DNA of 10,231 nucleotides, taken from assembly GCA_030616165.1 (NCBI GenBank), contig JAUWXV010000129.1:1-10231 (forward strand), read 5' to 3'. A program made the translations under genes and the position numbers. How positions within the stretch are numbered: position 1 is the stretch's first letter; every line of letters starts with the position of its first letter. Below the pieces are notes generated by a model. That model saw only the letters and a program-made list of their open reading frames with translations, was not told the DNA's origin and did no database searches. The DNA is from a bacterium (lineage in GTDB: Bacteria; SM23-31; JAUVVT01). This document shows positions 8,125 through 10,231 of this stretch, one piece after another.

Positions 8125-8198
<74 letters not shown>

Positions 8199-8207
8199 CA
8201 ATATTAA

Positions 8208-8250
8208 AAAGGGTATTCTTAAAAAGTATTAAGAATACCCTTTATTTTTA
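8208..8250 (+). terminator. Strong intrinsic terminator after tRNA-fMet
   Basis: A 13-base-pair perfect stem (8208-8220 with 8231-8243, core GGGTATTCTT/AAGAATACCC) extends by two A-T pairs into a 6-base loop. It is followed by TTTATTTTTA. It ends the tRNA transcript and any read-through from the peptidase operon. A-rich sequence on the left flank means it could also work on the opposite strand. Confidence 0.9.
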
Positions 8251-8388: not shown

Positions 8389-8417
8389 TTGACAATAATT
8401 TAAAAAGTTATTATAAT
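8389..8417 (+). promoter_or_regulatory. Exact-consensus sigma-70 promoter
   Basis: TTGACA (8389-8394) and TATAAT (8412-8417) both match the consensus perfectly and are separated by the optimal 17 bases. Transcription would begin at about G8423 or A8424. The first start codon downstream is the GTG at 8686, so either a leader of about 260 bases is made or a separate small RNA is transcribed first. It is the best promoter in the window. Confidence 0.82.
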
Positions 8418-8422
8418 ATATC

Positions 8423-8610
8423 GAAATTTTCTGAAAGTAAAATTAATTAGTGATTGCACTCACTAAAGCATTTCTATATATATCTGCCATAATAAATGAA
8501 ATTTATAACTGCCCTAATGATTATTTATATATTTAAATTGATTTTATTTTGCAAAAGCATTCTTTTTTAACTTCAAAAGGCAAAAGTACGTGCTCTTTTA
8601 CTTTTTTATT
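8423..8610 (+). ncRNA. Candidate structured small RNA or long 5' leader
   Basis: No reading frame is evident between the promoter at 8389 and the GTG at 8686. The first roughly 190 transcribed bases can pair in an organised way. The ends form a 10-base-pair helix (8433-8442 with 8596-8605, one G-U). GCAC (8456-8459) can pair with GTGC (8590-8593), and ACT (8462-8464) with AGT (8585-8587). AATTTA (8500-8505) can pair with TAAATT (8534-8539), continuing outward through further A-T pairs to about 8485/8553. A competing local hairpin, TTAGTGA/TCACTAA (8447-8453 with 8460-8466), has 7 pairs. A T-rich run (8602-8617) could end the RNA. Length, strong promoter and rod-like shape are compatible with 6S RNA, but the 5' side is asymmetric and low complexity makes chance pairing likely. 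A regulatory leader of the downstream gene is the alternative. Confidence 0.3.
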
Positions 8611-8643
8611 ATTTTTACATTTTAAAATATAGTTTTTCTGTTA

Positions 8644-8659
8644 ATTAATTTCTATTAAT
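8644..8659. repeat. Paired ATTAAT motif before the oxidoreductase gene
   Basis: ATTAAT occurs at 8644-8649 and again at 8654-8659, separated by TTCT, with a 10-base centre-to-centre distance of about one helical turn. Because ATTAAT is its own reverse complement, the pair is both a direct and an inverted repeat. It lies 27 bases before the GTG start and could be an operator, but such motifs are common by chance in DNA this rich in A and T. Confidence 0.2.
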
Positions 8660-8685
8660 CATTTAAAAATCGTTTAAGGTATAAA

Positions 8686-10231
8686 GTGAAAGGTATATTA
8701 TCTACATGTGGTGGATGCGGCTGTGGTTGTGGGGTATACTTGTATGGAGAAGAAGGAAGAATAAAGAATGTTGTCCCGGTGAAAATTCATCCAGCAAGCA
8801 GGGGTAATCTTTGTATAAAGGGCTGGCATATTTATCAAAGTATAAACAGCAGTGAAAGGCTGAAAAAACCGTTGATTAAAAGAAATGGTACATTTCAAGA
8901 GGCTACATGGGAAGAAGCTGTTGGCTTTGCTGTAAAAGGATTTAAAAAGATTTTAAAAAGGGAAGGGGGAAAAGGAATCGGAGTAATTGGGTCACAAAAA
9001 ATAACAAATGAAGAAAATTATTCTTTGATGAAATTTGCAAGAACTGTCCTTGGAACTAACAATATTGACCTATGCGGAATGTTTTATTGTTTCTCGCTTC
9101 AAAGTGAACCTTTTAATGTATTTTACGGTGGTTCTATTTATGATTATATTGATGAACTTCAGGAAAATGATATTGTTTTTATTATTGGTGCTAATCCCGC
9201 CGAAGAAAGCCCCCAAATTGGAGCAAGAATTTTAAAGGCATTAAGAAGAGGAGTAAAACTATTCATAGTTAATCCGAGGGAAATTCAGTTTGGAATGTTT
9301 TCTGAAATTTATTTGAAAAATATACCTGGAAGCGAAATCGGAGTTATTAACAGCATTTTAAGGCTGATTCTTGAGGGCAGAGAAGATACAGAAGAAAAAG
9401 AATTGTTCGAATTTCTTGAATTATATAATCAAAAGTTTTTCGAGGAGTTATCCGGAGTAAGTTTTGAAGAACTTAAAAAAATTGCAGAAGATTTAAAAAA
9501 GCCTGTTAAAAAATTAATACTTTTTTCATCTGGTTTAGTTTCGAACGAATTTTTACCAGATTCTGTAAATAGCATTTTATATATAGCAAAACTTACCGGT
9601 TCAAAGGTATATTCTTTAGGCGGTCAGAATAACTTCAGAGGAGCAGTAGAAATGGGTGTTCAGCCCGGGTATCTGACTGATTATCAATCAATTGATGAGG
9701 TAAGGAAAAAATTTGAGAAAGCCTGGGGAAGAAGCTTTCCTGATGAAGTAGGATTAAATGTTTTTGAAATGTTTGAAGAAGCTTTAAAATATGCTCTTAA
9801 GGGTATGTATATTGTAGGAGAAGATATTGTTGTTTCTGCTCCTGATACAAACCGAACAAAAAGAGCATTATCTAATCTTGAATTTCTCGTTGTTCAGGAT
9901 ATTTTTATGAGCGAGACTGCACAGTTTGCTGATGTTATACTGCCCGCATCAAGTTTTGCAGAAAAGGATGGAACATTTACTAATCTCGAAGGAAGAGTCC
10001 AAAGGGTAAGAAAGGTAATTGAGCCAAGGTTTGAATCCAAACCAGACCTGCAAATTTTTAATCTTCTTGAAGTAGGATTTGGAAGAAAACCAAAGTCTGA
10101 TATACCGACAAAAATTATGAAAGAGATTTCATCGCTTTCCCCACATTATAAAAATGTCAATTATGAAGAACTTGATAAGGGATTTGGTATATTGGTTGAT
10201 TTCCCTCTTGATGGCAAAGTTCCGAAGGTAC
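8686..10231 (+). CDS. Formate-dehydrogenase-like molybdopterin oxidoreductase with altered active site (3' end beyond window)
   Basis: The open frame runs from a GTG at 8686 (AAGG at 8676-8679; upstream in-frame TAA at 8656, no ATG between) through 515 codons to the window edge without a stop. It resembles the catalytic subunit of Mo/W-bis-PGD formate dehydrogenases, close to E. coli FdhF. The N-terminal [4Fe-4S] site is C8-x2-C11-x3-C15-x27-C43 with the electron-conducting K45, and an extra C13. FARTVLGTNNID (117-128) and GGQNN...EMG (312-324) are family landmarks, as are DVILPASSFAEKDGTFTN and the VQRVRK that follows. The catalytic residues are not conserved: an ungapped alignment puts Y134 at the Sec/Cys, C135 at the histidine, and G312 at the arginine of FdhF. 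No in-frame TGA suggests selenocysteine. There is no N-terminal [2Fe-2S] domain. It probably binds the cofactor and passes electrons, but formate oxidation is doubtful and the substrate is unknown. Confidence 0.88.
   Translation, partial: MKGILSTCGGCGCGCGVYLYGEEGRIKNVVPVKIHPASRGNLCIKGWHIYQSINSSERLKKPLIKRNGTFQEATWEEAVGFAVKGFKKILKREGGKGIGVIGSQKITNEENYSLMKFARTVLGTNNIDLCGMFYCFSLQSEPFNVFYGGSIYDYIDELQENDIVFIIGANPAEESPQIGARILKALRRGVKLFIVNPREIQFGMFSEIYLKNIPGSEIGVINSILRLILEGREDTEEKELFEFLELYNQKFFEELSGVSFEELKKIAEDLKKPVKKLILFSSGLVSNEFLPDSVNSILYIAKLTGSKVYSLGGQNNFRGAVEMGVQPGYLTDYQSIDEVRKKFEKAWGRSFPDEVGLNVFEMFEEALKYALKGMYIVGEDIVVSAPDTNRTKRALSNLEFLVVQDIFMSETAQFADVILPASSFAEKDGTFTNLEGRVQRVRKVIEPRFESKPDLQIFNLLEVGFGRKPKSDIPTKIMKEISSLSPHYKNVNYEELDKGFGILVDFPLDGKVPKV

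Follow-up and report, generated by a model that had tools for sequence, protein, structure and literature searches.

A formate dehydrogenase-like subunit without the residues of formate chemistry heads the operon of an energy-converting [NiFe] hydrogenase

The last gene of the window (the whole stretch of 10,231 nucleotides that was analysed, which is the entire contig C255 of the source genome) opens an operon that encodes an energy-converting [NiFe] hydrogenase resembling formate hydrogenlyase (FHL). Its product has the FdhF (MopB) fold and has lost the catalytic triad of formate dehydrogenase (FDH), its iron-sulfur ligands are conserved, and the hydrogenase encoded further downstream has intact [NiFe] ligands. 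Most genomes that carry these genes lack synthesis of the molybdenum cofactor (Moco). We consider it probable that the subunit derives from an FDH, no longer handles formate and serves an ion-translocating, NAD(P)H-linked hydrogenase as a [4Fe-4S] connector that works without the cofactor.

The gene starts with a GTG codon at 8686 and its first 515 codons were called as an open reading frame on the forward strand (8686..10231), with the 3' end open at the contig end. The final ~110 codons lie on the minus strand of C226, another contig of this genome (L072:9382-9714), and ~24 codons are absent between the two contigs. Because the truncated gene ends match, C226 is probably the continuation of C255. 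A complete gene of 649 codons is present in L036 (JAUVVT010000036.1), from a metagenome-assembled genome; the locus is also present in G001, which belongs to the same family as the window genome. Upstream of the operon on the forward strand lies a tRNA-Met (CAT) gene (8125..8199), an outside neighbour that is parted from it by a terminator-like hairpin (8208..8243). The hairpin is followed by a sigma-70-like consensus promoter, TTGACA-N17-TATAAT, matching at 12/12 positions (8389..8417, forward strand), the sole perfect one of six promoter-like sites, against 5.8 expected. It would give a leader of ~260 bases (8424-8685) before the GTG. A regulatory RNA in this leader was considered and dropped, since no Rfam family matched, the fold was no better than that of shuffled sequences (z 0.70) and the leader is poorly conserved in L036.

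Behind the MopB gene, L036 encodes a HydB/AsrA-like [4Fe-4S] protein and a HydG/AsrB-like flavoprotein, together the diaphorase pair, and a HycI-like protease. Farther downstream are two Mrp/NuoL-like proteins and then a fused NuoC/NuoD-like large subunit. A search with the L036 proteins traced their counterparts in the window genome to contig C226. The remainder of the gene and the genes downstream, which a preliminary description of the window had pointed to as informative, are therefore available from C226 and L036, and they include hydrogenase, protease and diaphorase genes. The best match of the large subunit among solved structures is HycE of E. coli FHL (E=1.6e-129), and both Ni-binding CxxC motifs are retained (RICGICG and DPCFSC); these motifs and the maturation protease gene place the operon in group 4 of the [NiFe] hydrogenases (FHL/HycE-like). 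The protease scores above the cut-off of the maturation-protease superfamily, but below that of the HycI equivalog (105 vs 119). In L078, a collinear locus from another phylum-level group, the operon extends with NuoH-like, NuoI-like, third antiporter-like and NuoB-like subunits. In the window genome a gene between those of the flavoprotein and the protease (L072:7029-7343, minus strand) encodes a protein of 104 residues that has a signal-like start and a hydrophobic C-terminal helix; Pfam gave no match for it, and no counterpart was seen in L036.

The large subunit was searched for in 386 genomes spread over the domain, and then in two phyla. The operon module is present in three phylum-level groups. 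The same gene order was found at 12 loci of one other group (L078, L143, L161-L165, L167, L169-L172), at two of which the contig ends inside or before the MopB gene; three further genomes of that group contributed shorter contigs. The third group has the large subunit in 8 of 10 genomes. There the order is rearranged: in all five examined the MopB gene lies downstream of the large subunit, directly behind the small-subunit gene in two. The reading of G134 and G271 as operons without the subunit was rejected, as their MopB gene stands behind the small-subunit gene and has lost the triad there too. Other group 4 hydrogenase operons (L146, L148-L150) have HydB/HydG-like genes and no adjacent MopB gene of this type. 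Catalytic FdhA-AsrA-AsrB loci were found as well (L080, L081), and no hydrogenase genes were found next to them.

Aligned to E. coli FdhF (L206), which serves as the reference for residue numbering, the window protein has Tyr134 for Sec140 and Cys135 for His141 (9085..9090, forward strand) and, in the GGQNN region, Gly312 for Arg333 (9619..9621, forward strand), in place of the Cys/Sec140-His141-Arg333 set that marks FDH alpha subunits. All three replacements had been proposed in the preliminary description and are confirmed here, together with the gap-free alignment: the spacing from NN to D is 38 residues in both proteins. L036, the sole close homologue (67% identical), has Tyr, Tyr and Gly at positions 140, 141 and 333, so the window residues are no sequencing error. 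The Cys/Sec-His-Arg set is complete in 22/22 catalytic relatives vs 0/20 operon homologues, a loss that is not due to chance; the earlier conclusion that the protein is no formate dehydrogenase holds.

The replacing residues vary. Among the 15 collinear-operon proteins position 140 is Y (8), D (3), T (2) or H (2) and position 333 is M, H, L, G or Y; neither original residue is retained in any of them, and His141 is retained in 6. The five proteins of the third group have S, G, C, C and T at 140 and M, T, M, M and A at 333. Cys at 140 thus occurs in 2 of the 20 operon homologues, both without the His or Arg. The drift at the three positions indicates that the site is no longer under selection. 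The suggestion that Cys135 or Cys130 might reach the metal did not survive: the residue equivalent to Cys135 is Tyr in L036, and Cys130 corresponds to the Cys that true FDHs normally have in their HCARxC/U motif. Both were ruled out as metal ligands.

The [4Fe-4S] binding region (8707..8820, forward strand) is intact, in agreement with what had been described: Cys8 (8707-8709), Cys11 (8716-8718), Cys15 (8728-8730), Cys43 (8812-8814) and Lys45 (8818-8820) are all present. All five residues are kept in 15/15 collinear-operon homologues. The third group (n=5) keeps the four cysteines and has Arg at the Lys45 equivalent, so that the cysteines are conserved in 20/20 operon homologues. Their presence with Lys45 is no proof of a bound cofactor, because L003, a NuoG-like protein of the window genome, keeps them, as do homologues in genomes without Moco synthesis.

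A search for MoeA, MoaA and MoaC covered 19 genomes, of which 17 carry the collinear operon and two belong to the third group. The same seven genomes have all three and the same twelve have none. The three are missing from 12/17 collinear-operon carriers, nine of which are at least 90% complete (97, 97, 95, 97, 98, 96, 91, 94 and 90%). HypD, which is needed for the [NiFe] site, was found in 17/19 genomes, including every one that is at least 90% complete (it is missing from two genomes of 85 and 78% completeness), and in 10 of the 12 Moco-less carriers. As three markers are jointly missing while HypD is present, random assembly gaps are no explanation. Unless these carriers import Mo/W-bis-PGD, their subunit must function in its absence. 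The window genome does have MoaA, MoaC and MoeA, on contig C53. Near them (L076) is a Sec-containing FDH-like gene of 1020 codons with an in-frame TGA, which would explain the Moco genes of this genome. Because the window genome makes Moco, loss of the cofactor in the window's own case is argued from homology, by which this subunit most likely no longer carries Mo/W-bis-PGD.

The best curated family for the protein is TIGR01591 (formate dehydrogenase alpha). The window fragment scores 419.9 bits against a cut-off of 666, the full-length relatives L036, L078 and L165 also stay below it (458, 522 and 594 bits), and the catalytic controls L079 and L081 reach 869 and 867 bits. Scores for NuoG (TIGR01973) are 159 bits for the window and 172 for L036 vs a cut-off of 470. 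The reading frame starts at the MopB [4Fe-4S] domain and Pfam finds PF04879 and PF00384 only; the NuoG-type N-terminal [2Fe-2S]/ferredoxin-like domains are absent, as had been noted before. In place of the partners of a quinone-reducing complex I, the neighbouring large subunit has both [NiFe] CxxC motifs. Lacking these three defining features, the subunit is NuoG-like in its working, yet it is no NuoG. Nor is the operon a formate hydrogenlyase, with the triad lost and a HydB/AsrA-like partner in place of HycB, and its gene content does not supply the OmeB, HupX, HupSL and RdhA partners of OmeA.

Between the window genome and the second group MopB identity is 33-38%, whereas the HydB-like protein reaches 46-49%, the large subunit 61-69% and the flavoprotein 63-67%. 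MopB is thus among the fastest-changing subunits of the operon, and only the protease is similarly variable. In catalytic FDH-AsrA-AsrB loci, for which there was one control pair only, MopB was the slowest (60%, vs 34% for AsrA and 43% for AsrB). An AlphaFold2 model of the L036 protein, made with an alignment of 16 sequences (pLDDT 80.8), has a full-length FDH fold; Foldseek matched it to formate dehydrogenases (1fdi, TM 0.87 normalised to the query). The segment directly behind the former Sec-His positions, residues 136-154, has a pLDDT <50, of which the shallow alignment may also be a cause. In a MopB tree the triad-less proteins are all on one side of a branch (93/99). Support for the 17 grouped together is 54, and a tree that groups the window pair with the catalytic FDHs is not rejected either (p-AU 0.40); the pair may thus have lost the triad together with the other groups or separately.

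In the mechanism that we propose, NAD(P)H would exchange electrons at the HydG/AsrB-like flavoprotein, which would hold FAD and one iron-sulfur cluster, and the HydB/AsrA-like [4Fe-4S] dicluster protein would be the next carrier. The single [4Fe-4S] cluster of the FdhF-fold subunit would link the HydB-like clusters to those of the NuoI- and NuoB-like subunits. The NuoI/HycF-like and NuoB/HycG-like subunits would pass electrons to or from the Ni-Fe site of the HycE-like subunit, and the Mrp/NuoL-like subunits would couple electron transfer to ion movement, with either direction of flow possible. NAD(P)H is the probable electron partner, and the operon products would assemble into a single complex. 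The products of an operon do not always assemble together, however, and, as Moco is made in the window genome, its protein could still bind the cofactor; both points count against a cofactor-free connector. We give slightly better than even chances to a position of the cluster on the electron path, and slightly less than even ones to a position off it, like that of N7 in complex I.

A subunit of purely structural, docking function, its [4Fe-4S] cluster an off-path relic like N7, is a special form of the connector that we propose, and a possible one at clearly less than even chances. The HydB/HydG-like operons without such a subunit (L146, L148-L150) suggest that it may be unneeded as a conductor. 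FdhF is loosely bound in FHL, and N7, in the NuoG homologue, has been described as lying too far away to participate (PMC9474812). Against a mere docking role stand the cluster cysteines, conserved in 20/20 proteins that otherwise share only about 33-38% identity. Off-path clusters tend toward loss, as in mitochondrial NDUFS1. A subunit that had retained Mo/W-bis-PGD for another reaction, with Tyr134 or Cys135 as a new metal ligand or with no protein ligand, would fit the capacity of the window genome for Moco synthesis and the state of the cofactor domains, which retain their fold and many conserved glycines. Changes of ligand are also normal between families of the MopB superfamily. We nevertheless regard it as unlikely: the operon homologues have Y, T, H, D, S, G or C at position 140 and G, H, Y, M, L, T or A at position 333, so that no new ligand is under common selection, and twelve carriers have no Moco synthesis. 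The preliminary description had left room for electron transfer only, as in NuoG, and for a different reaction with the cofactor kept. The operon, the drifting site and the Moco-less genomes speak for the former; the latter is contradicted by the lack of Moco in most carriers, the unconserved site residues and the Tyr that replaces Cys135 in the 67% identical L036.

With no catalytic residue left and a conservation among the lowest in the operon, the subunit has traits that would be expected of a decaying remnant without function. Such a remnant is very improbable, because reading frames are intact in three phylum-level groups, the cluster ligands are complete, and the gene has kept its position at the operon head or behind the small-subunit gene. 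Least probable of all is an active formate dehydrogenase misread through an assembly error or a wrong alignment. FDH-alpha is the best family match, and one HMMER alignment moves Cys135 onto the metal position; this shift needs a +1/-1 gap, the next residue is then Phe and not His, and L036 has no Cys to shift. An active enzyme is refuted by L036, an independent assembly and close homologue without the Cys/Sec-His-Arg set, and by 18 further operon homologues without the triad; the scores of full-length homologues below the FDH-alpha cut-off also speak against it. A cofactor-free connector remains our preferred reading.

Word searches, which left subscription literature mostly uncovered, found no description of an inactive FDH-like subunit in such a hydrogenase, and as far as the searched papers show, triad loss across groups and Moco-less carriers are apparently undescribed. 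The nearest system is a region of Saganbacteria RX5A (PMC6349859), which likewise combines a group 4 [NiFe] hydrogenase, Mrp-like subunits, asrA, asrB and MopB. Its MopB was a formate dehydrogenase by HMMs that phylogeny failed to place; the region was called enigmatic, and an Mbh-like function alone was proposed (PMC6349859). The comparison is by description, and the main text of that paper contains neither an active-site analysis nor a Moco test. E. coli formate hydrogenlyase (FdhF-HycBCDEFG) shares the HycE-type large subunit, NuoH-, NuoI- and NuoB-like partners and an FdhF-fold subunit. There, however, FdhF is a Sec/Mo enzyme with HycB as partner, whereas the window operon has lost the triad and has a HydB-like dicluster partner and an extra HydG-like flavoprotein.

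NuoG/NDUFS1 also has an FDH-derived fold without catalytic residues and one [4Fe-4S] cluster in its MopB part, placed on the input side of a complex-I-type machine. The window subunit differs in lacking the N-terminal ferredoxin domains and in having as partner a hydrogenase with intact Ni ligands. The FdhF-like domain of StnC, in the StnABC transhydrogenase, is again an FdhF-fold part of an NAD(P)H electron-transfer complex and is stated to be catalytically inactive, but it is one part of a fusion of 1172 residues, and its complex is soluble and bifurcating and has no hydrogenase (PMC10482914). OmeA of Dehalococcoides is an FDH homologue associated with a [NiFe] hydrogenase in a respiratory complex; it is drawn with a putative bis-MGD and is set apart, by description, by its OmeB, HupX, HupSL and reductive dehalogenase partners (PMC10772276, PMC6258894). 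The FdhA-AsrA-AsrB loci L080 and L081 resemble the window operon in having MopB beside AsrA- and AsrB-like genes, but they retain U/C-H-R, and L081 lies above the FDH-alpha cut-off (867 bits).

The route by which a formate-dehydrogenase ancestor gave rise to NuoG, the NADH-side subunit of complex I, is still open, and this operon bears on it: it combines intact hydrogenase ligands with an FDH subunit that has lost its chemistry and with an NAD(P)H module. The authors of the FHL structure make the case that the FDH-like subunits of FHL and of complex I were acquired independently (PMC9474812). We see an even chance that the operon is a living parallel to the step from FDH to NuoG, that is, an H2-active, ion-translocating complex with a Moco-free former FDH subunit and an added NAD(P)H module. 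The Moco-less carriers make cofactor-independent working of the subunit directly testable. The case is also a warning for annotation, since the best HMM match labels such genes formate dehydrogenase and genome surveys would wrongly credit the carriers with formate oxidation.

Related proteins were seen elsewhere. In two Dehalococcoidales loci (L038:9341-17166 and L043:9329-17177) NuoG-type ferredoxin domains occur with an FDH-type MopB part in which the triad is absent (Y, C or S, Q). The genes that follow in L038 encode NuoE-like, NuoF-like, MetV-like and MetF-like proteins, the NuoF-like one as a fusion with a pyridine nucleotide oxidoreductase, and the cluster possibly encodes a methylenetetrahydrofolate reductase complex with an inert FDH part. 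The window genome (G000) itself encodes, on contig C215 (L075:3034-6433), an 871-codon NuoG-like protein without the triad, with a weak AsrB-like neighbour.
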